Shown piece by piece: positions 14,717 to 60,018 of a stretch of DNA of 60,018 nucleotides. Numbering within the stretch: the first letter of the stretch is position 1; every line of letters begins with the position of its first letter. Made by a program: the position numbers and the translations under genes. The notes beneath the pieces are model-generated. The model saw only the letters and a list, made by a program, of their open reading frames with translations. It was not told the origin of the DNA and searched no databases. This DNA is from Sandaracinobacteroides sayramensis (GTDB lineage: Bacteria > Pseudomonadota > Alphaproteobacteria > Sphingomonadales > Sphingomonadaceae), in the NCBI RefSeq assembly GCF_022014495.1, contig NZ_JAKLSQ010000017.1, positions 1 through 60,018 on the forward strand. The letters are read 5' to 3'.

Positions 14717-14806
14717 CGTCACCCCGGGCTTGACCCGGGGTCCAGCTTTCCCCTGCCACAGCACCGGAGAGAAACAGCCGGACCCCGGGTCAAGCCCGGG
14801 GTGACG
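14717..14806. repeat. Repeat A, copy 1 (double palindrome)
   Basis: Two arms of about 29 bases face each other. Each arm contains the small hairpin CCCCGGGCTTGACCCGGGG (or its complement), and the arms are also inverted repeats of one another, so the unit can fold as two hairpins or one long cruciform. It lies 19 bases after the gltB stop. The same unit recurs nine more times in this window. No T-run follows, so a simple intrinsic terminator is not evident. Confidence 0.85.
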
Positions 14807-14930
14807 AGATTGCGGAGTTGCGCAGGAATCCCCTTGCACGCAGCGGTCGAGGTGGGACCGAACCACCTCTCCGCACCCCCACACCCCACAACCGCTTGAC
14901 GGCCCTCCCCGCAACCGCCACCCATCGCCG

Positions 14931-20200: not shown

Positions 20201-20392
20201 GCCGGCCTGACACCGGACATTTCCAACAGCCGTCACCCCGGGCTTGACCCGGGGCCCAGCTTTTCTGCCGTCGCAGCGCTTGAGGAAGACAGCGGGACCC
20301 CGGGTCAAGCCCGGGGTGACGGAGGAGTTTCACAGCCGCCGCTTCCCAGCGGAACCGACGTTCGCCGCCCGGGTTTGCAAACTGCACGATCA
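20201..20392. repeat. Composite repeat D-A-D (repeat A copy 2 with D flanks)
   Basis: Repeat A (20231-20321) is flanked by two conserved stretches. The left flank resembles GACACCGGACATTTCCAACA. The right flank is a ~65-base segment ending GTTTGCAAACTGCACGATCA. The same three-part block is found at 45369-45563, and its right flank alone at 27840-27911. The whole gap 20050-20605 contains no gene apart from this block and the rho hairpin. Confidence 0.75.
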
Positions 20393-23779: not shown

Positions 23780-24250
23780 AGCCCCTCCCCTGACAGGGGG
23801 GTGGGGTGGGGCCGAGCCGCCAGCGCCCACAGTCCCGCTTCGTTCAGCCTCCGGCGGCCAGGGCTTCGCCCTGGACCCAGCAGGGGCGTGACGCCCCTGC
23901 ACACCCGATCCTCCACGCAGCGCCAAACCGGCCGAGCCATTCAGACAACCAACCTCCCACCCCGTCCCCCCGGGCTTGACCCGGGGTCCAGCTTTCCGCC
24001 TCCACCGCCGTGCCCGCCCAGAAGCTGGACCCCGGGTCAAGCCCGGGGGGACGAATGGTTCCGGCGGATGCAACCACCCGAACACAGTCGCGCGCGCAAC
24101 CGATCCGATTGCCTGCGGCGCTCGAACCACCCAGCGCCGCAGGCCATAAACCCTTCCACCAGCCCAACCCCGCCGCAAACCCCGAGAACCGGGGGTGCAG
24201 GGGCGTCACGCCCCTGCTGGGTCCAGGGCAAAGCCCTGGCCGCCGGAGGC
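23780..24250. repeat. Composite repeat element X1 (E-B-S-A-C-B')
   Basis: The gap between two convergent genes is filled by repeat modules: an E hairpin (23780-23847), arm B (23848-23907), a spacer S, repeat A (23963-24053), module C with the hairpin GCCTGCGGCGCT ... AGCGCCGCAGGC (about 24110-24153), and an inverted arm B' (24190-24249). It is the reverse orientation of the elements at 34218-34619 and 43321-43704. No gene is present. Confidence 0.85.
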
Positions 24251-24259
24251 AGAAACCCC

Positions 24260-25000
24260 CTACCGCGCCAAAGCCTCGAACGCCGCCCGTATCCGCCCCA
24301 CCGTATCCGGATCGTGCGTCGTCTCGCGCATGGCCGCCAGCGACCGCCGCGCGGCGTCCTTGTCGCCGGCTTTCTGCTCCAGCCGCGCGCGCTCCCACCA
24401 CAGCGCCGGCATCCCGGGCGCCACCAGCGTCAGCCGGCGGTAGAGCGTCAGCGCGCGCGGCTCGTCGCCGGCTTTCAGGGCTCGGCTGGCCTGGTTCATC
24501 ACCAGCCGCACCAGCGTCTCGCGGTTGTCCATCGGCCTTGTTCCGGGCACGGCGTTTTCCAGCATGCGCCCGTCGTGGAAGGGGTCCAGCATCACCTGCT
24601 CGGCCTCCGGGCCGATGGCCACGAACACATGCCCCGGCACGCCGCGCAGGTTCGCCGCCCAGCCGTGCCGGCGGGCGATGGCGACATAGAGGATGGCGAG
24701 CGCCACCGGCAGCCCGCGCCGCCGTTCCAGCACGGAGATGAAGTCGGCGTTGCGCGGATGGTCGTAGTCGTCGCAATCGCCGGTGAAGCCCTCCTCCCGC
24801 GCCAGCAGCCGGCCCAGGGCTCCGGCTTGCGCGGCGGAGCCGCGAACGGCCCCCGGCAACCGCGCCGCCAGCGAATCGAGCAGCAGCAGCGGCCCGGACA
24901 AATCCGGGCGAACGCGATCGGCGGCGGCGATGTCCAGCGCCGCCAAATCCAGCCTTATCTCCGCGTCGTCGTAACAGCCCAGCGTCGCCAGCGGGTCCAT
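24260..25000 (-). CDS. SirB1-family protein (transglutaminase-like plus TPR)
   Basis: A 246-residue protein. The middle contains the SirB1/transglutaminase-like fold (DDYDHPRNADFISVLERRRG; LPVALAILYVAIARR; GVPGHVFVAIG). The C-terminal third holds TPR-like helices (ALKAGDEPRALTLYRRLTLV; MPALWWERARLEQKAGD). The family has no settled biochemical role. It is the last gene of the rsmI-yraN-sirB1 run, 24 bases after yraN. Confidence 0.82.
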   Translation of the reverse strand: MDPLATLGCYDDAEIRLDLAALDIAAADRVRPDLSGPLLLLDSLAARLPGAVRGSAAQAGALGRLLAREEGFTGDCDDYDHPRNADFISVLERRRGLPVALAILYVAIARRHGWAANLRGVPGHVFVAIGPEAEQVMLDPFHDGRMLENAVPGTRPMDNRETLVRLVMNQASRALKAGDEPRALTLYRRLTLVAPGMPALWWERARLEQKAGDKDAARRSLAAMRETTHDPDTVGRIRAAFEALAR

Positions 25001-25024
25001 GGGGGTGCCTCCTCCGAGTCTTAT

Positions 25025-25390
25025 CTATTGCACCCCTGCAATATGGCGCGGCCAATGCCCGGGCGCCAGCGCAATCAGATCGACCCGCGCGCTCGGCGCC
25101 GGCCGCCCGGGCCGAACCGCCTCGGCGGCAAGCTGAACGGCGGCACGCTGCAGGCGCAAGGCCGCCTCCGGCTTCAGCGCGCAAAGCGCCGCCTCCAGGG
25201 TCGGCCGCTGCTTCACTTCCACCACCGCCAGCACGTCCCCGCGCCGGGCGACGATGTCGATCTCGATCATCGGCATCCGCCGCCGCCGCGCCACGATCCG
25301 CCAGCCCTGCGCCTGCAGCCACAGCGCCGCCCACATCTCGGCCCGCCGCCCCCGCCGCTCGGCGGCCCATCTCGCAGAGGCGCGGCTCAC
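25025..25390 (-). CDS. YraN/UPF0102 endonuclease-like protein
   Basis: A 121-residue protein of the YraN family with a PD-(D/E)XK-like core: GRRAEMWAALWLQAQGWRIV, EIDIVARRGDVLAVVEVKQR (the D and EVK of the motif). Family members resemble Holliday-junction resolvases, but the cellular role is unclear. It overlaps rsmI by four bases (ATGA), a very common pairing in proteobacteria. Confidence 0.9.
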   Translation of the reverse strand: MSRASARWAAERRGRRAEMWAALWLQAQGWRIVARRRRMPMIEIDIVARRGDVLAVVEVKQRPTLEAALCALKPEAALRLQRAAVQLAAEAVRPGRPAPSARVDLIALAPGHWPRHIAGVQ

Positions 25391-26265
25391 TGCCCGCCCT
25401 TCAGCTCCAGCGCCCGCGCATAGACCTCGCCGCGCGGCACCCCCAGCGCCGCCGCTACGCTCGCCGCCGCCTTCCCCGCCGGCAGCGTCTGCAAGGCGGC
25501 CTTCAGTGCCTGATCCAGCGCCTCGGCCGAGGAAACCTCCGCCGCCGGCGGCCCCACCAGCAGCACGATCTCCCCCTTGGGTTCTTCGCCAGCAAACCGC
25601 GCCGCCAGTTCGTCCAGCGCCCCGCCCACATATTCCTCATGCCGCTTGGTCAACTCCCGCGCGACCGCCGCCTGCCGTGGCCCGAACGCCCGCGCCAAAG
25701 CCACCAGCGTCGCCGCCAGACGCGGCCCGCTCTCGTAGAAGATCAGCGTCGCTGGCACGCCCGCCAGCCCGGCGATGGCCTTGTCCCGCGCCGCCGCCTT
25801 CGCCGGCAGGAACCCGGCGAACAGGAAGCGGTCGGACGGCAGGCCGGAAATCGAAAGCGCCGCGATCGCCGCGGAAGGCCCCGGCGCCGTCGTCACCGCG
25901 ATCCCGCGATCCCGCGCCGCCCGCACCAGCTCCATGCCGGGGTCGGACACCAGCGGAGTCCCCGCGTCCGACACCAGCGCCACCGCCGCATGCGCCATCC
26001 GCGCCAGCAGCTTCTCCTCCACTTCGGCCGGGCTATGGTCGTGATAGGCCAGCATCGGCCGATCGCTTCCGGCCGCCCGCAGCAGCTTCGCCGTCACCCG
26101 CGTATCCTCGCACGCCACCAGATCGGCCTGCCGCAGGAACCGCGCGGCGCGCGGCGACAGGTCCTCGAGGTTGCCGATAGGCCCCGCGACGATATACAGC
26201 CCGGGTTCAAGGCGGCCTTCCGGCAGGGGGTCGGATGGCGAAACAGCGGGCGGAGTGGAACGCAT
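25387..26265 (-). CDS. rsmI: 16S rRNA (cytidine-2'-O)-methyltransferase RsmI
   Basis: A 292-residue tetrapyrrole-methylase-fold enzyme that 2'-O-methylates C1402 of 16S rRNA. Family motifs are clear: GLYIVAGPIGNLEDLSPRA near the N-terminus, CEDTRVTAKLL, YHDHSPAE, VSDAGTPLVSDPG, and PGPSAAIAALSISGLP. The ATG at 26263-26265 overlaps the start codon of the divergent LpoA-like gene, leaving no intergenic space for promoters. Confidence 0.95.
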   Translation of the reverse strand: MRSTPPAVSPSDPLPEGRLEPGLYIVAGPIGNLEDLSPRAARFLRQADLVACEDTRVTAKLLRAAGSDRPMLAYHDHSPAEVEEKLLARMAHAAVALVSDAGTPLVSDPGMELVRAARDRGIAVTTAPGPSAAIAALSISGLPSDRFLFAGFLPAKAAARDKAIAGLAGVPATLIFYESGPRLAATLVALARAFGPRQAAVARELTKRHEEYVGGALDELAARFAGEEPKGEIVLLVGPPAAEVSSAEALDQALKAALQTLPAGKAAASVAAALGVPRGEVYARALELKGGQ

Positions 26266-27574
26266 GCAGGCACATTGCGAGGCGGACGGCACAAGAGCAA
26301 GCGCCCCCACCGGATTCGAGGCCGGATTCGGGCCCGGATTCGGGCGGCGCACATTCGCAACGGGCCTCGCGCTCTCGGTGCTGGCGCTGGCGGCCTGCGC
26401 CCCGCGCGCCAAGCCGCCGGTGGCGCCGGTCGCGCCGCCGCCGCCGGTCGAGAAACCCGTCGAGGTGAAGCCCGGCGAAACCCACCGCATCGCCATCCTC
26501 GTGCCGCTGACGGGCGCCAACGCCCCGGTCGGGATCAGCCTCGCCAACGCCGCCTCACTGGCGCTGGTCGACACCAACAAGCAGGGCGTCCGCCTCTCCA
26601 GCTACGACACCGCCGCGCTCGGCGCCGCCGGCGCCGCCAACCGCGCCATAGCAGACGGCGCGCAGCTCATCCTCGGCCCGCTCCTCTCGGCGGACGCCGC
26701 CGCCATCAAGGCGGCAGCGGCCAGCAAGGGCATCACCGTCCTCAGCTTCTCCAACGACGCGGCGATCGCCGGCGGCAATCTCTTCGTGCTCGGCTTCCAG
26801 CCGGCGCAATCGGTCGGCCGGGTGGTCGATTATGCCGCTTCGCGCGGCGCGAAGAAGTTCGCCGGCCTCGTGCCGGACGGGGTCTACGGCCAGCGCGCCT
26901 CGGTCGCCTTCACGCGCGCCGTCGCGCAGAACAGCGGCCAGGTCGTCGCCCTCACCAACTTCGCCCGCACCCCGGCCGCGCTGCCCGCCGCCGCCCGCAA
27001 GGTCACCGATTTCGACGCGCGCCAGAAAGCCGCCACCGCCACCACCCCCACCACAAGGCCGGACGGAACGGTGGCCCCCGCCAGCCGCGCCACGCCCCCC
27101 ATCGCCTTCGAAGCGCTGCTGGTGGCGGATTCCGGCGCCATCGCCGCCGCCTTCTCGCCGCATCTCGCGAAATTCGGCGCCGCGCCCGGCAGTTACCTGC
27201 TGATGGGCACCGAGCTCTGGAACACCGAGCCCGGCCTCGGCAAATCCCCGGCGCTGAAAGGCGCCGTCTTCGCCGCCGTGCCGGACCAGCGCTTCCAGTC
27301 CATGTCGCGCCGCTACCAGGCCCGCTTCGGCGGCACCCCGTCCCGCCTCGCCAGCCTCTCCTACGATTCGATGCTGCTCGCCATCAGCGCCGCCGGCGCC
27401 CAATGGCAATTGGGCCAGATCTTCCCGCAAGCGGTCCTGGCAGACCAGCAGGGCTTCGCCGGCGTGGACGGCATCTTCCGCTTCAAGGGCAACATCGCCG
27501 AACGCGGCCTGGAAGTGCAGCAGGTCACCCCCCAGGGCTTCAGCACGGTCAGCCCGGCCCCCACGGCCTTCTGA
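26264..27574 (+). CDS. LpoA-like penicillin-binding protein activator lipoprotein
   Basis: A 436-residue protein. A long N-terminal extension with FEAGFGPGFG repeats leads to a twin-arginine-containing lipoprotein signal (GRRTFATGLALSVLALAAC, Cys45). The mature part is a periplasmic-binding-protein fold (IAILVPLTGANAPVGISLAN; LILGPLLSADAAAIKAAA; AGLVPDGVYGQRASVAF; FEALLVADSGAIAAAF), the pattern annotated as penicillin-binding protein activator beside rsmI. It presumably acts in peptidoglycan synthesis at the outer membrane. The true start could be downstream in the extension. Confidence 0.82.
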   Translation: MQAHCEADGTRASAPTGFEAGFGPGFGRRTFATGLALSVLALAACAPRAKPPVAPVAPPPPVEKPVEVKPGETHRIAILVPLTGANAPVGISLANAASLALVDTNKQGVRLSSYDTAALGAAGAANRAIADGAQLILGPLLSADAAAIKAAAASKGITVLSFSNDAAIAGGNLFVLGFQPAQSVGRVVDYAASRGAKKFAGLVPDGVYGQRASVAFTRAVAQNSGQVVALTNFARTPAALPAAARKVTDFDARQKAATATTPTTRPDGTVAPASRATPPIAFEALLVADSGAIAAAFSPHLAKFGAAPGSYLLMGTELWNTEPGLGKSPALKGAVFAAVPDQRFQSMSRRYQARFGGTPSRLASLSYDSMLLAISAAGAQWQLGQIFPQAVLADQQGFAGVDGIFRFKGNIAERGLEVQQVTPQGFSTVSPAPTAF

Positions 27575-27582
27575 ACCCAAAA

Positions 27583-27911
27583 ACCCCTTCCTACCAGGGA
27601 GGGGTTGGGGTGGGGGCGAGCCGCCAGCGCCCACAGTCCAGCTTGTGCAGCCTCCGGCGGCCAGGGCTTCGCCCTGGACCCAGCAGGGGCGTGACGCCCC
27701 TGCACCCCCGATCCTCAACCAAGCGCAAAACCAACCAACTCCACTACCCGTCACCCCGGGCTTGACCCGGGGTCCAACTTTTCCGCCAGCACCGCGTTCA
27801 AGGAAGACAGCCGGACCCAGGGTCAAGCCCGCGGTGACGCGAGCGTTTCACAGCCCCCGCTTCCCACCGAAACCGCCGTTCGCAGCGCGGGTTCGCAAAC
27901 CGCACGATCAC
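27583..27911. repeat. Composite repeat element X2 (E-B-S-A-D)
   Basis: The gap to the DedA gene holds an E hairpin (AACCCCTTCCTACCAGGGAG, from 27583), arm B (27651-27710, loop variant GCTTCGC), spacer S, repeat A (27749-27839) and a D right flank (27840-27911). The right arm of this A copy carries two changes (ACCCAGGG; CCCGCGG) that break its inner hairpin. No closing B' arm is present, so this is a hybrid of the X and D forms. Confidence 0.8.
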
Positions 27912-27920
27912 CGAAAGAAC

Positions 27921-28523
27921 CTACCCCTTCCACCGCTTCCACATCACCACGCGGTAGAGATAGATCGCAAAGCAAACGAAGATCACCGCGGTCGAAAGCG
28001 GCCCGATCACCTTGTCGATCTCCTCGAAGCGGTTGCCCAGATAATAGCCCGCCACCGTCAGCCCCATCGTCCAGATGAAGGTGCCGATGGTGGAATAGAT
28101 CATGAAGCTGCGCACGTTCATCCGCACCAGCCCGGCCGGCACCGAGATCAGCGAGCGGATGGTCGGCAGCACCCGCCCCACGCCCACGAAGGCGCCGCCA
28201 TACCGGTGGAACAGCCGCCGCCCCCGGTCGATCTCCTCATGGTCCATGGTCAGCACCCGGCCATAGCGCACCAGGAACTGCTCGAAACGGTCCAGCCCCA
28301 GCTTCCAGGCGATCCAGAACCACAGCACATTGCCCGCCATCGCCCCGACCGTGCCGGCAACGATCACCCCGAACAGCGAACCGCCCTGCTGCGCGACGTT
28401 GATGCCCGCGATCGGCATGATCACTTCAGAGGGAATCGGCGGGAAAACCGTCTCCATGAACATCAGCAGCGCGACGGCGACATAGCCCCAGTTCTCGATG
28501 AACTGCCCGATCCACTCGCTCAT
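27921..28523 (-). CDS. DedA-family membrane protein
   Basis: A 200-residue inner-membrane protein of the DedA/SNARE-associated family. It has the family's N-terminal region (GYVAVALLMFMETVFPPIPSEVI), the G-x3-G-x3 segment with WFWIAWKLG, and FVGVGRVLPTIRSLISVPAG with the conserved Arg and Pro. DedA proteins are thought to support lipid-carrier or phospholipid flipping. It starts three bases after the gshB stop, so it is co-transcribed with gshB. Confidence 0.92.
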   Translation of the reverse strand: MSEWIGQFIENWGYVAVALLMFMETVFPPIPSEVIMPIAGINVAQQGGSLFGVIVAGTVGAMAGNVLWFWIAWKLGLDRFEQFLVRYGRVLTMDHEEIDRGRRLFHRYGGAFVGVGRVLPTIRSLISVPAGLVRMNVRSFMIYSTIGTFIWTMGLTVAGYYLGNRFEEIDKVIGPLSTAVIFVCFAIYLYRVVMWKRWKG

Positions 28524-28526
28524 GGC

Positions 28527-29498
28527 TCAGGCGCCCGCCCGCAAGGCTTCCACCTTGCTCCAGAACAGGGCGGGAATGTCGGTGCCGTTGAAACGGTCGA
28601 TGGCAACGATGCCGGTCGGCGAGGTCACATTGATCTCCGTCAGCTTGCCGGCGATCACGTCGATCCCCACGAACATCAGCCCCAGCCGCTTCAGGTCCGG
28701 GCCGATCGCCGCGCAGATCGCCTGCTCCTCCGGGCTCAGGTCGGTCGCATGGGCCGAACCGCCGGCCGCCAGATTGGACCGTATCTCGCCGGCCCTGGGC
28801 AGGCGGTTGATAGCCCCCACCGGCTCGCCGTCCAGCAGCACGATCCGCTTGTCGCCCTTGGACACGTCGGGAAGGAAGGCCTGCACCATGAAGGGCTCGC
28901 GCCACACCTTGCCGAACAGCTCCACCAGCGCCGGCAGGTTGGAATCGCCCGCCGGCACATGGAACACCGCCGCCCCGCCATTGCCGTAAAGCGGCTTCAC
29001 CACCACTTCGCCATGCTTCGCGCGAAATTCCTGCGCCGCCTCCAGCGACCGGGTCACCAGGGTCGGCGGCATAAACTCCGCAAAGTTCAAAACGAACAGC
29101 TTCTCCGGCGCGTTCCGAACCGAGGCCGGGTCGTTCAGCACCAGCACGCCGGCCGCCTGCGCCCGCTCCAGCACATGCGTCGCGGTGATATAGGCCATGT
29201 CGAAGGGCGGGTCCTGCCGCATCAGCACCACGTCGATGCTGTCCGCCATGTCCAGCCGTTCAGGCTCGCCCAGCCAGCGAAAATGCGGCTCCCCCGGCGC
29301 CTGCGGGCGCATCGCCGTGACCGGTCGCGCCGTCACCACCACCCGGCCCTCGACCCAGTCGAGCTGGTCGGGCAGATAATGCCAAAGCCGATGCCCCCGC
29401 GCCACCGCGCCCAGCATCAGGGCGAAAGTCGAATCCCCCGCCACATTGATTCCCTCAAGCGGGTCCATCTGGACAGCGATTCGAAGCGAAGAGGCCAT
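28527..29498 (-). CDS. gshB: Glutathione synthetase
   Basis: A 323-residue ATP-grasp ligase that joins gamma-glutamylcysteine and glycine. Family segments: IAVQMDPLEGINVAGDSTFALM at the start, VLMRQDPPFDMAYI, LNDPASVRNAPEKLFVLNF, VVKPLYGNGGAAVFHV (ATP-binding loop), and LTEINVTSPTGIVAIDRF near the end. The length fits the bacterial enzyme. It leads a two-gene run with the DedA gene and has repeat element X3 immediately upstream. Confidence 0.96.
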   Translation of the reverse strand: MASSLRIAVQMDPLEGINVAGDSTFALMLGAVARGHRLWHYLPDQLDWVEGRVVVTARPVTAMRPQAPGEPHFRWLGEPERLDMADSIDVVLMRQDPPFDMAYITATHVLERAQAAGVLVLNDPASVRNAPEKLFVLNFAEFMPPTLVTRSLEAAQEFRAKHGEVVVKPLYGNGGAAVFHVPAGDSNLPALVELFGKVWREPFMVQAFLPDVSKGDKRIVLLDGEPVGAINRLPRAGEIRSNLAAGGSAHATDLSPEEQAICAAIGPDLKRLGLMFVGIDVIAGKLTEINVTSPTGIVAIDRFNGTDIPALFWSKVEALRAGA

Positions 29499-29557: not shown

Positions 29558-29887
29558 CCTCCGGCGGCCAGGGCTTTGCCCTGGACCCAGCAGGGGAATG
29601 TTTCCCCTGCACCCCCGATCCTCAACAAAGCGCAAAACCCCCAAAGCCGCTCAGCCACTCAACTCGTCACCCCGGGCTTGACCCGGGGTCCAGCTTCTCC
29701 GCCACCATAACGCCGGAGAAACAATCCAGCATTCGCGCGCCAACAATTCCGATTGCCTGCGGCGCCGGGCAAAGCCAGCGCCGCAGGCAATCAAATAGCC
29801 AACAAGCGCAACCCCGCCGCAAATCCCGAGAACCGGGGGTGCAGGGGCGTCACGCCCCTGCTGGGGTGAAGGGGCAAAGCCCCTTCA
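29558..29887. repeat. Composite repeat element X3 (B-S-A half-C-B')
   Basis: Between the gshB start and the parB stop lies a shortened element. It contains arm B (29558-29617, stem variant AGGGGAATGTTTCCCCT), spacer S, the left arm of A (from 29665, right arm lost), module C (hairpin at about 29755-29795) and B' (29834-29887), whose second hairpin is AAGGGGCAAAGCCCCTT instead of CCAGGGC-type. The gap 29499-29937 has no other content. Confidence 0.8.
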
Positions 29888-34150: not shown

Positions 34151-34168
34151 GTGAGGGCCATAGCAGAT

Positions 34169-34184
34169 TGTTCCACGTGGAACA
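34169..34184. promoter_or_regulatory. parS site 4 (upstream of mnmG)
   Basis: Perfect TGTTCCACGTGGAACA, 18 bases before the mnmG start codon. It forms the left border of repeat element X4. Confidence 0.93.
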
Positions 34185-34217
34185 AAGGGGTGGGTGTGGG
34201 GGCGCGGCGGGGTTTTG

Positions 34218-34680
34218 CCTCCGGCGGCCAGGGCTTTGCCCTGGACCCAGCAGGGGCGTGACGCCCCTGCACCCCCGGTTCTCGGGGTGTGCGGCGGGGT
34301 TGGGCTGGTGGGGTGGTTTATGGCCTGCGGCGCTGGGTGGTTTTAGCGCCGCAGGCAATCGAATCGGTTGCGGACGCGGCTGTGTTCGGGGGTTTGAGCG
34401 ACCATAGCCATTCGTCACCCCGGGCTTGACCCGGGGTCCAGCTTCTGGGCGGGCACGGCGGTGGAGGCGGAAAGCTGGACCCCGGGTCAAGCCCGGGGGG
34501 ACAGGTGGTGGAGTTGGTTGCCTGAACGGCTCGGCCGGTCTGGCGCTGCGTCGAGAATAGGGGGTGCAGGGGAAACATTCCCCTGCTGGGTCCAGGGCAA
34601 GGCCCTGGCCGCCGGAGGCTCCCCAGGTTGGACGGTGGGCGCTGGCGGTTTGCTCCACTCCAACCCCTCCGTGCAAGGGC
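34218..34680. repeat. Composite repeat element X4 (B-C-A-S-B'-E)
   Basis: This fills the mnmE-mnmG gap. Arm B is at 34218-34277. Module C follows, with the hairpin GCCTGCGGCGCT ... AGCGCCGCAGGC at about 34322-34358. Repeat A is at 34413-34502, then spacer S, inverted arm B' (34560-34619) and an E module. The left arm has stem AGGGGCGTGACGCCCCT and the right arm AGGGGAAACATTCCCCT, so each arm is self-complementary but the two no longer fully match. parS sites sit on both sides. No gene is present. Confidence 0.87.
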
Positions 34681-34689
34681 GGCTTTGAT

Positions 34690-34705
34690 TGTTCCACGTG
34701 GAACA
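34690..34705. promoter_or_regulatory. parS site 5 (3' of mnmE)
   Basis: Perfect TGTTCCACGTGGAACA, 26 bases beyond the mnmE stop codon and just outside element X4. With the other four it makes five identical sites in about 2.5 kb. Confidence 0.93.
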
Positions 34706-34730
34706 ATTTGGGTTATTTCAGGCGAAACAG

Positions 34731-36983: not shown

Positions 36984-37074
36984 CGTCATTCCGGGCTTGA
37001 CCCGGGGTTCGGCTTTCTTTGTCGAGCGCGGGGCGGGCGGAAAAGCTGGACCTCGGGTCAAGCCCGGGGTGACG
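36984..37074. repeat. Repeat A, copy 7
   Basis: A solitary copy of the double palindrome between two convergent genes, slightly diverged (ATTCCGGG and ACCTCGGG replace the usual bases). A 15-base direct repeat (GACGGGGAAATGCGG) follows at 37071-37085 and 37107-37121. The rest of the 214-base gap holds nothing else. Confidence 0.8.
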
Positions 37075-37175
37075 GGGAAATGCGGGGCGGCGGGAAAATG
37101 GGGGGCGACGGGGAAATGCGGCGAGGGCTGGTATGGGTTTCCGGCCTGGCGTTGGGCTGCTGAAGGGGGTGCGGC

Positions 37176-43320: not shown

Positions 43321-43772
43321 CCTCCGGCGGCCAGGGCTTTGCCCTGGACCCAGCAGGGGCGTGACGCCCCTGCACCCCCGGTTCTCGGGGTGTGCGGCGG
43401 GGTTGGGCTGGTGGAAGGGTTTATGGCCTGCGGCGCTGACTGGTTCGAGCGCCGCAGGCAATTGAAACCGGTTGCGGGCGCGGCTGTGTTCGGGGGTTTG
43501 ATCGGCTGGGCCATTCGTCGCCCCGGGCTTGACCCGGGGTCTGGCTTTGTTTCTCCGGCGTTGGGCGGGCGAAAAAGCTGGACCCCGGGTCAAGCCCGGG
43601 GTGACGGGTGAGGGAGTTGGTTGGTTTTGCGCTTGGTTGAGAATCGGGGGTGCAGGGGAAACATTCCCCTGCTGGGTCCAGGGCAAAGCCCTGGCCGCCG
43701 GAGGCTGCACAAGCTGGACGGTGGGCGCTAGCGGCTCGCTACCACCCCAACCCCTCCCCCTGAAGGGAGAGG
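43321..43772. repeat. Composite repeat element X5 (B-C-A-S-B'-E)
   Basis: This element fills the convergent gap between the M28 and ubiB genes. It contains arm B (43321-43380), module C with the hairpin GCCTGCGGCGCT ... AGCGCCGCAGGC (about 43427-43462), repeat A (43516-43606), spacer S, inverted arm B' (43645-43704) and an E module. It has the same module order and orientation as X4, and the same pair of differing arm stems, so X4 and X5 are the closest relatives in the window. Confidence 0.87.
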
Positions 43773-45295: not shown

Positions 45296-45748
45296 TGCAG
45301 GGCTCTGCCCTGCACCCGGAAGGGGTCTTTAGACCCCTTCACCCCATTTTGTTTACGGCAATCGGGCGGCCGCCGAGCTGACACTGGATATTTCCAACAC
45401 CCGTCACCCCGGGCTTGACCCGGGGTCTCGCTGTCTTCCTCGAACGCGGCGCCGGCGGAAAAGCTGGACCCCGGGTCAAGCCCGGGGTGACGATTGGGTG
45501 TTACAGTCGCCGCTTCCCACCGGAACCACCGTTCGCAGCGTGGGTTTGCAAACCGCACAATCGCCTTTTGTTTGGGGGGGTGAGGTATGGGAAGCCCGCG
45601 CTTCTGGCTGGCGCCGCAGGCCATAGGACTTCCGGCGTGGGTGATCTGGCGCTGCATCCGAATCAGCCCCACCGAACGCTTTCCGGGGTGCAGGGGCCTA
45701 CAGGCCCCTGCCGGGGTGAAGGGGCAGAGCCCCTTCCCTTCCCCGCCA
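45296..45748. repeat. Composite repeat element X6 (B-D-A-D-B')
   Basis: Between ubiE and ubiB. A diverged B arm (45296-45345; stems GCAGGGCTCTGCCCTGC and AAGGGGTCTTTAGACCCCTT) is followed by the D-A-D block (45369-45563, A at 45402-45492), a C-like remnant (GGCGCCGCAGGCCATA near 45613), and an inverted B' arm (45685-45736; stem AGGGGCCTACAGGCCCCT). The bracket of inverted B arms is kept although the core differs from X1, X4 and X5. No gene is present. Confidence 0.82.
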
Positions 45749-49287: not shown

Positions 49288-50736
49288 ATGCAGCCTTTCC
49301 CGCCCGCCCAGACTTCCATGCCCGCGGAGCCCCTGCGCCAGCAGGGCGCCAGCCGCGCCGATTCGGCCGGAGGATTGAACGCCGATGCGCTGCGGACCTG
49401 GGGGCTGGTGCGCGCGCATCTGCTGTCGGACGTGGGCGAGAAGACCTTCAACAGCTGGCTGAAGCCGTTGCAGCTGCTGTCGGTGAGCGGCGGCGAGGTG
49501 CGGCTGGCGGTGCCGTCGCGCTTCATGGCCGACTGGGTGAAGAATCACTTCGCCGACCGGCTGCGCCATGCCTTCGCCGCGCACATCCCCGGAATCCGCA
49601 ACGTGGCGATCGAAGTGGGGGCGATCGAAGTGGGGGCGGGCGCCGCCATCGTCTCCGAAGAGGCCCCCGAAGCCGCCCCGGCGGAAGCGGATGCCGGCGA
49701 GCCGGTGAACTTCGAGCCGCGCTACAGCTTCGACAGCTTCGTGGTCGGCAAATCGAACGAGCTGGCCTTCAACGCCGGTCAGGCAATGGCGTCCGCCGTC
49801 ACCTCCGGCAAGGCCGCCGGCTTCAACCCGCTGTTCCTGCATGGCCCGACCGGGCTCGGCAAGACCCACCTGATGCACGCCATCGGCTCGCAGGTGCTGG
49901 CCGCGAACCCGAAGGCCAAGGTCGTCTATCTGTCGGCCGAGCGCTTCATGGTGGAGTTCCTGGCGGCGCTGCGCGCCCGCGACACCATCAGCTTCAAGCG
50001 GCGCCTGCGCTCCGCCGACCTGCTGATGGTGGACGATGTGCAGTTCATCGCCGGCAAGGATTCGACGCAGGAGGAATTCTTCCACACGATGAACGAGATC
50101 ATCTCCGCCGGCCGCTGGCTGGTGATCTCGGCCGACCGCTCGCCGCAGAATCTGGAAGGCATCGAGTCGCGAATCCTCTCCCGCCTCGCCTGGGGGCTGG
50201 TGGCGGACATCAACCCCGCCGACTTCGAGCTGCGCTACAACATCCTGAAGACCAAGCTCTCCGCCATGCCCGGCACCGATGTGCCGGACGATGTGGTGCA
50301 GTTCCTGGCGCGCAAGATCGTCGCCAACGTCCGCGAGCTGGAAGGGGCGCTGAACCGCGTCATCGCCTATGGCAACCTCGTCGGCCGCAAGCTGGACCTG
50401 GACTTCACCCGCGAAGTGCTGGCCGACGTGCTGCGCGCCCACTCGCGCAAGCTGACCATCGACGAGATCCAGCGCCGCGTCGCCGACCATTATGCGCTGA
50501 AGATCAACGACCTGATCTCCCCCCGGCGCGCGCGCGAGGTGGCAAGGCCGCGGCAGGTGGCGATGTATCTGGCGAAGATGCTGACGCCGCGATCGCTGCC
50601 CGAAATCGGCCGGCGGTTCGGCGGGCGCGACCATACCACCGTGATGCACGCGGTGAAGCGGATCGAAGAACTGCGCGCGACCGACCATGAACTGGATCGG
50701 GATATCAACCAGTTGCGGCGGGCTTTGGATTCCTGA
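49288..50736 (+). CDS. dnaA: Chromosomal replication initiator DnaA
   Basis: A 482-residue AAA+ initiator. Domain I helices include [20 protein letters not shown]; domain II is a short linker with a duplicated AIEVG. The AAA+ domain has Walker [10 protein letters not shown] near residue 187, Walker [10 protein letters not shown] near 247 and sensor motifs. Domain IV has the DnaA signature [20 protein letters not shown]. Full length. The ATG fits, although the N-terminal ~25 residues are low in family resemblance. Confidence 0.97.
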
Positions 50737-50763: not shown

Positions 50764-51167
50764 CCTCCGGCGGCCAGGGCTTTGCCCTGGACCCAGCAGG
50801 GAAATGATTTCCCTGCACCCTCTTTTGGTTTGCCTGGGTGGATCGATTGCGGCGCTGTGCCGGTGAAGGGATTGATTGCCTGCGGCGCTTTGGAACTACG
50901 CAATTCGTCACCCCGGGCTTGACCCGGGGTCCAGCTGTTTTTGCCCGCCATTCGGGCATGATCGGCGAACCTTAGCGCGCGCGGAAGCTGGACCCCGGGT
51001 CAAGCCCGGGGTGACGGTGGAGATGGCGGTTGAAAATCCACAAGCTCGGCGCCGCAGGCAATAAACACTCGACCTTCAGCCCAAACTTGCCGCGTTTAAC
51101 CGAGAATCGGGGGTGCAGGGGCGTCACGCCCCTGCTGGGTCCAGGGCAAAGCCCTGGCCGCCGGAGG
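50764..51167. repeat. Composite repeat element X7 (B-C half-A-C half-B')
   Basis: This fills most of the dnaA-thrS gap. It contains arm B (50764-50820, stem AGGGAAATGATTTCCCT), a half of module C (ATTGCCTGCGGCGCTTT near 50876), repeat A with a longer centre (50906-51016), the other C half (GGCGCCGCAGGCAATAA near 51049), and inverted arm B' (51108-51167, stem AGGGGCGTCACGCCCCT). Here A appears inserted inside C. No gene is present. Confidence 0.83.
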
Positions 51168-55694: not shown

Positions 55695-55799
55695 GGCGGG
55701 AAGCTGGACGCGGGGTGACGGCTATGCCCGGCGCTGCGTCGAGAACAGGGGGTGCAGGGGAATCATTCCCCTGCCGGGGTGAAGGGGCAGAGCCCCTTC
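55695..55799. repeat. Truncated composite repeat X8 (A half-S-B')
   Basis: After the crotonase gene lies the right half of a decayed A repeat (GGAAGCTGGACGCGGGGTGA), an S fragment (GCGCTGCGTCGAGAACAGGG) and a B' arm (55748-55799). The arm has stems AGGGGAATCATTCCCCT and AAGGGGCAGAGCCCCTT. The left part of the element is absent. Confidence 0.7.
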
Positions 55800-55868
55800 G
55801 GACTTTCGGAGAAAAGACGCTTCAGGGGCGGCGGCCGATGGCTGCCGCCCCTGTTCCCCTCCCCGGGA

Positions 55869-59959: not shown

Positions 59960-60018
59960 CCTCCGGCGGCCAGGGCTTTGCCCTGGACCCAGCAGGGGCG
60001 TGACGCCCCTGCACCCCC
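59960..60018. repeat. Repeat arm B at the right window edge
   Basis: A B arm in + orientation (CCAGGGCTTTGCCCTGG, then AGGGGCGTGACGCCCCT) running to the last base. Its position suggests that another composite element continues beyond the window. The preceding 59793-59959 holds no gene. Confidence 0.85.

Follow-up and report, generated by a model that had tools for sequence, protein, structure and literature searches.

Nested palindromic elements around the likely replication origin of Sandaracinobacteroides sayramensis contain REP-like dimers with arms that differ according to GC skew

Introduction

Contig NZ_JAKLSQ010000017.1 of Sandaracinobacteroides sayramensis (Sphingomonadaceae) carries a palindromic sequence that recurs in one intergenic gap after another, which raises the question of what this sequence is, how its copies came about, and what has shaped them since. 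The contig is one of 41 in the 3.82-Mb genome assembly; its entire length of 60,018 nucleotides, referred to below as the window (C9 in our contig numbering), was compared with genomes of the same genus and family. Its genes include parB, rsmG, mnmG, mnmE, ubiB, gshB, ubiE, dnaA, and thrS. The original prediction, made from the letters of the window, was that of a modular unit with inverted ends and a defined core, either a non-autonomous mobile element or a dedicated structural system.

Copies and modules of the element

The repeat is a nest of palindromes, roughly 230 to 450 bases in size, found between genes around the likely replication origin. All five of the predicted fairly complete copies, X1 (positions 23848 to 24249, minus strand), X3 (29558 to 29887, minus), X4 (34218 to 34619, plus), X5 (43321 to 43704, plus), and X7 (50764 to 51167), were recovered with the same boundaries, and X1 and X3 are indeed opposite in orientation to X4 and X5; X7 is devoid of direction-giving modules and was assigned no strand. 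X1, a complete element with the order B-CC'-A-B', lies to the left of the GC-skew switch described below and is adjoined on its left side, from 23780, by the S repeat. X3 is also complete, with two different B types and only one A arm, and lies at a break in gene order. The complete elements X4 and X5 follow, X4 in the mnmG/mnmE gap. In X7, which is located directly downstream of dnaA (49288 to 50736, plus strand), A is nested in C/C' and these in B/B'. The partial forms suspected near 27583, 45296, and 55695 proved to be genuine truncated or variant elements, none with an assigned strand: X2 (27651 to 27838) consists of a B end and an A dimer with 2 mismatches in its right arm, X6 (45296 to 45741), in the ubiB/ubiE gap, combines other B types with A and one C half, and X8 (55730 to 55805) is a right end only. 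One more B end (59960 to 60018, plus strand) is cut by the contig end. Solo A palindromes are found at 14718 to 14807 (both arms intact) and 20231 to 20320 (1 mismatch in the left arm), both without an assigned strand, and at 36984 to 37075 (minus strand; 3 mismatches in the left arm and 1 in the right).

Every element falls between genes called by our own script, as had been predicted, and the elements total 2,691 of the 10,153 non-coding bases of the window. The inverted B ends and the core of the proposed modular make-up held up, but A also occurs solo at many sites and the interior order is variable: in X1, X4, and X5, A is found next to a closed C hairpin, and in X7 within the C palindrome. 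The S repeat (GTGGGCGCTGGCGG) adjoins one end of the element at 23780 to 23848, 27595 to 27651, 34620 to 34680, and 43704 to 43757; at X1 and X2 it comes with a CCCCTCC-type hairpin, and a similar hairpin is seen within C loops elsewhere.

Module B is 57 bp long and consists of two hairpins linked by ACCC, and the element ends are B in inverted orientation; C is TTGCCTGCGGCGC, paired with its own inverse (C/C'). The window contains 11 matches to a 29-base B pattern (at most 3 mismatches), compared with an expectation of 0.00 from 100 shuffles, and the 11-base C core also has 11, against 0.73 expected, so that chance can be excluded. At up to 2 mismatches, there are 43 B hairpins and 330 A half-sites in the entire genome, with 0 matches of the reversed control patterns of B and A. 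The 11 of the 43 B matches that fall within the window, 1.6% of the genome, come from a window chosen for this very finding. Direct reading covered ∼30% of this genome. Contigs C4, C6, C7, C8, C9, C15, C16, C21 (at both ends), and C34 end inside element copies, indicating that the assembly breaks at the elements.

The B ends begin at CCTCCGGCGG in the 69 listed copies from three genomes, the same string having anchored the search, and other B types occur besides these. In the 25 distinct gap-free sequences that represent 57 of the 69 anchored copies (the 12 that did not fit were left out), 99.5% of the cells in the B stems are paired and 7 of the 16 pairs are altered on both sides, a number matched by 8 of 500 shuffles; the covariation score of 0.326, against at most 0.150 for slid structures, was reached by none of the 500. 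The B stems thus vary through compensatory changes. Folding gave z scores of −14.1 for X7 (as DNA) and −18.8 for X4 (as RNA), and a comparison with Rfam matched one tRNA and nothing else.

In the fetched DNA of six genomes of the genus, C/C' pairs were examined for B-type hairpins on either side, under a strict rule that X1 fails by a single base at both of its ends; 35 of 48 pairs proved to be framed: 21 in this genome, 11 in the congener G003, and 3 in G001, with none in the smaller stretches read from G002, G004, and G005. The outer boundaries and a fixed core are therefore common to three genomes of the genus, contrary to an independent, random occurrence of the modules. A lies within C/C' in 12 of the framed elements, beside it in 13, and is absent from 10, 3 of which have a closed C loop of 7 to 12 bases (C1:530677-530905 in this genome, one in G001, and one in G003). 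When the empty frame C1:530677-530905 was aligned with ten filled ones, the part missing from it was the A-bearing stretch, and in G003 other hairpins also occupy the C loop. Given the A-less elements in three genomes, the composite can be read as a B-CC'-B' frame with REP dimers beside or inside the C loop, and the comparison of filled and empty frames, along with the other hairpins of G003, suggests that palindromes were set into, or next to, the loops of other palindromes. Yet another palindrome (TAAGTTTGCAGAAGAGCCCCCCGG and its inverse), bounded on each side by B-like double hairpins, is present in two near-identical copies, at L077 5340-5550 and L099 6205-6410.

Module A and the CGTC-tagged REPs

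Module A consists of two inverted half-sites, CGTCACCCCGGGCTTGACCCGGGGTCCA, with core starts usually 62 or 54 bp apart. Each half-site has an 8-bp stem and a 5-base loop, ACCCCGGG-CTTGA-CCCGGGGT, followed by a CCA tail, and at one end of most of the listed A arms there is an unpaired CGTC tag. Among the 163 A units in the fetched DNA, 87 are paired, 65 single, and 11 hairpin-only, so that inverted dimers predominate, if narrowly; some of the singles are decayed dimers. The stem is GGGCTTGACCC (GGG/CCC) in this genome, GGACTTGATCC (GGA/TCC) in 13 half-sites of G003, and GTGCTTGACAC (GTG/CAC) in the single dimer seen in G005, and it differs between this genome and G003 in every copy seen. A comparison with plasmids matched X4 in its A part alone; the 16 records concerned belong to Sphingobium, Sphingomonas, and Novosphingobium.

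S. wittichii and S. chlorophenolicum are sphingomonads. Both are among the hosts of CGTC-REPs, which prevail in alphaproteobacteria and for which a dedicated transposase appears to be absent, according to the available text of Di Nocera et al. (2013, PMC3733652). As defined in that text, these repeats have a CGTC tag, a stem of 8 to 9 bp, a loop of 4 to 5 bases, and a CCA-like tail, and form mostly inverted dimers; complementary A and T at stem positions 1 and 2 are almost invariable (PMC3733652). Here, AT-type arms have complementary AT at both positions and the more common GC-type arms at position 1 only, the two types being separated by one C-to-T and one G-to-A change. Judged by its sequence, the A half-site fits the CGTC-tagged REPs.

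The likely origin and gene order in relatives

In the gap between mnmG and mnmE, at ∼34 kb, the GC skew of the window turns from negative to strongly positive. This gap holds X4 between two identical sites, 34168 to 34185 (TTGTTCCACGTGGAACAA) on its left and 34689 to 34706 on its right, neither assigned to a strand, which we take to be parS-like from their motif. The genes on either side of the switch are codirectional, so that it does not stem from gene strand, and in G001 the skew switches at the equivalent gap; the switch likely marks the origin of replication. The parS-like pair was considered as a target-site duplication made by X4, as G002 and G004 have one site compared with two here; this reading was rejected because G005 has two such sites and G003 three without the element.

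The gap of X4 measures 580 bp here, 51 bp in G002 and G004, 99 bp in G005, 187 bp in G003, and 740 bp in G001, where another B-ended element lies between two parS-like sites. That of X6 measures 453 bp here, 50 bp in G001, and 14 bp in G002. Some element-bearing gaps are thus short in relatives (for X4, in G002 and G004; for X6, in G001 and G002). No target-site duplication was obvious by eye in the flanks, and the relatives are too diverged for a base-level empty site. The X7 site behind dnaA is occupied in G001, too, by an element that has B and C of the same kind but differs in its interior and lacks A. The shared dnaA site and the short gaps elsewhere imply that some sites are old and that others were filled later or emptied.

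Three elements, X1, X2, and X3, mark three gene-order breaks around a single 5-kb block (24260 to 29468) of six called genes between X1 and X3, split by X2. Parts of this block are found elsewhere and in another order in relatives, and in G003 a single B-C-A element lies between the orthologs of the genes that flank it. The displaced block and the single element of G003 fit recombination between copies; homologous recombination of this kind is the probable cause of gene-block movements near the origin. With 18 gaps being uninformative, composites were found in 4 of 8 broken gaps versus 3 of 27 conserved ones (P = 0.033), and composites or A-only units in 5 of 8 versus 4 of 27 (P = 0.015); among gaps longer than 100 bp, with A-only units counted, the numbers were 5 of 7 and 4 of 14 (P = 0.16). 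The link between composites and gene-order breaks is therefore modest, and weak among gaps longer than 100 bp.

Polarity of the A arms

Since the contigs could not be ordered, GC skew, which likely reports the direction of replication, was used as its stand-in, and of the two arms the one with its CGTC on the strand that is C-rich by skew was designated the lagging arm. Starting from the 163 A units, those at contig ends, those that were hairpin-only, and those with more than 3 mismatches in both arms were dropped, and missing partner arms were sought. In the resulting set of 126 units, the leading arm is the worse one in 76, the lagging arm in 10, and 40 are tied (sign test, P = 1e-13). The same imbalance holds for solo units (55 versus 8) and within composites (21 versus 2), and at an absolute skew of at least 0.03 it is 64 versus 6. 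A coarser tally of polar sites yielded 48 of 55 for solo sites and 16 of 18 for those within composites. When units were grouped by contig and skew sign, as those on one contig are not independent, 18 of 21 groups followed the rule (P = 0.0015). Within the window, 5 of the 7 unequal units follow it, the A of X4 and the unit at 20231 being against, and 5 of the 17 AT-type arms go against expectation. Of 25 clusters of composites judged by modules W, C-D, and E, several of which share a contig and from which an S-module-only cluster was left out, 20 agree with the local GC skew and 5 disagree (two-sided sign test, P ∼ 0.004).

The polarity follows skew rather than genes. Intergenic skew was followed in 67 of the 86 untied units and strand-balanced coding skew in 72 of 82, compared with 52 of 86 for gene-strand bias (P = 0.07); where skew and gene-strand bias are in conflict, 27 of 30 units side with the skew, and in tandem gene contexts the orientation of A is independent of gene strand (P = 1.0). 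What is new here is this polarity of the arms relative to GC skew, as opposed to gene strand: a search of the literature on REP polarity and on sphingomonad palindromes, with partial coverage of subscription papers, found no report of it. An action at the RNA level, with the elements serving as terminators or as mRNA stabilizers in 3' regions, could be expected from the very stable folds and compensatory changes and from the location of most solo A sites between converging (47 of 122) or tandem (63 of 122) genes. However, their orientation ignores the strand of the flanking genes, the only Rfam match is a tRNA, and a symmetric dimer should fold alike on either strand, which makes such a role unlikely.

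It is highly unlikely that the elements are inert debris homogenized by recombination, with a polarity that comes purely from strand-specific mutation. The copies at gene-order breaks and the mosaic ends of X3 do fit recombination, but the one C-to-T and one G-to-A change between the AT-type and GC-type arms are not strand-biased, and perfect arms beside arms with at least 7 mismatches would be hard to obtain by mutation bias.

KOPS, the replication-oriented sites for FtsK, provide a model for a different explanation: the preserved A half-site could be a functional replication-oriented site that is selected in one orientation, while the other arm decays freely. This selection is the main rival on the origin of the polarity, although a doubtful one. 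In its favor, lagging arms are perfect in 61 of the 89 units with an absolute skew of at least 0.03 while leading arms are widely decayed; a decayed partner (7 to 10 mismatches) was found on the tail side of the arm with 0 to 1 mismatch in 7 of 23 solo singles, compared with 1 of 23 on the control side; and the polarity is independent of gene strand. On the other hand, we know of no protein for the preserved half-site, and copy number varies widely in the family, from the 330 half-sites here to none, even with a broader pattern, in G012, G020, and G057, so that the A site cannot be a general need.

Half-sites in other genera

The complete chromosome of G059 has 13 unpaired half-site loci: the minus strand carries 5 (258 to 1,021 kb) and the plus strand 8 (1,241 to 2,887 kb), a paired cluster at 3.18 Mb having been set aside. 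Up to 1.37 Mb, 8 of 10 stretches of this chromosome have a positive skew; beyond 1.53 Mb, 6 of 10 have a negative one, the other 4 stretches of the supposed negative half being positive. Its parS-like sites are found at 1.06 kb and 2.29 Mb. If the switch is placed between these two sets of stretches, 12 of the 13 loci agree and a stem variant at 1,240,621 does not. The REP of this genome has no second arm, and several of its copies lie within a longer repeat, so that polarity there means the orientation of the whole unit. At loci L242, L246, L247, and L249 of this genome, tandem CGTC-REP copies are spaced 25 to 27 bp apart, partly in a longer repeat.

In G048, where the loop is different, the 10 unpaired REP sites show no two-block order (two further sites, 377 bp apart and in opposite directions, were set aside), which argues against the polarity in general as well as against a replication-oriented functional site. 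In G074 the skew is too weak and the site orders are mixed, and in the remaining genomes of other genera half-sites are too few or absent.

Search for a transposase

No gene with the Y1_Tnp domain (PF01797) was found in this genome by a search that was positive in 5 of 14 controls, and the five congeners yielded a single partial match, in G001. Across the family, Y1 transposases are encoded by 12 of 59 genomes, at 13 loci, none of which has A or B within the 2.2 to 3.4 kb examined for each; one has a C core. A RAYT or other Y1 protein that would track the element, as the original prediction proposed to look for, is therefore not supported. Mobilization of a miniature element by RAYT/TnpA-REP or another Y1 transposase, as is thought for REPINs, is nevertheless suggested by the inverted REP pairs, the intergenic copies, and the short gaps in relatives, and lagging-strand polarity is what the available part of PMC6006769 leads one to expect of Y1 transposition. 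Given the missing gene, the family Y1 loci that lack the modules, and the similar absence of a transposase for CGTC-REPs in the available text of PMC3733652, we regard it as quite unlikely. RAYT mobilization is thus not supported, whereas the originally predicted notion of a non-autonomous unit, as opposed to random GC repeats, stands on the recurring boundaries and core and on the short gaps in relatives. A dedicated structural system, the other option, may be compatible with the replication-polar arms and the location near the origin.

Discussion

The element is probably a mosaic, built of bacterial palindromic repeats and shaped by a process dependent on the replication strand. The frame and the REP dimers would have spread in the past without a self-encoded transposase, and A would have joined the frame by insertion. 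The insertion, copying, or preservation of hairpins would then act on one strand at the fork, the likeliest substrate being single-stranded lagging-strand DNA, either at insertion or during later conversion from other copies. Arms made unequal by decay would point to selection or conversion after insertion more than to oriented insertion, so that the polarity may arise at either step. More tentatively, CGTC-REPs in general may owe their copying or preservation to a process bound to a single strand at the fork, whereby the lagging arm remains intact, the other decays, and nested elements flip at the origin.

The strong, gene-independent replication polarity narrows the possible mechanisms to those that see one strand of the fork. 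If this explanation is true, it implies either a transposase-free spread through single-stranded DNA of the lagging strand or a chromosomal site of a new, replication-oriented type. Publicly available finished genomes would allow the polarity to be tested. The frame illustrates a way in which REP mosaics may grow, through the nesting of palindromes within palindromes. With parS-like sites and dnaA as neighbors, the elements are located near the origin, in a region in which their copies coincide with displaced gene blocks.

Among known systems, miniature inverted-repeat transposable elements (MITEs) have terminal inverted repeats with fixed ends, which correspond to the B ends here, although the common start of the latter is the string that anchored the search. 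The BIMEs of Escherichia coli and the RIMEs of Rhizobium are, like the present element, intergenic mosaics of short palindromic modules, but their sequences are different, and to our knowledge the nested B(C(A)C')B' order and the replication-polar arms have not been described for either. The BRE repeats of Bordetella are GC-rich, intergenic, and 75 to 91 bp long and, unlike the A arms, are reported not to be co-oriented with the replication fork, as far as the available part of PMC3110155 goes. REPINs share with the element the inverted REPs that form one unit (Bertels and Rainey 2011, PMC3116915, available text); they come with a RAYT, none of which was found here, where the unit is enclosed in a larger hairpin frame. 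Tandem REP arrays are noted in the same text to have opposite orientations on opposite sides of the chromosome.

The closest likeness is to the CGTC-REPs, whose spread, with a dedicated transposase apparently lacking, is a published puzzle (PMC3733652). In the available text of that paper, the words "leading" and "lagging" are absent and the section on distribution is silent on replication polarity; the B-C frame, not met there, is a feature of the element described here. Module A and the CGTC-REPs of that text are alike in tag, stem, loop, tail, inverted dimers, intergenic location, and the absence of an associated transposase, and some REP dimers are described there within longer palindromes (PMC3733652), just as A is found within its frame.
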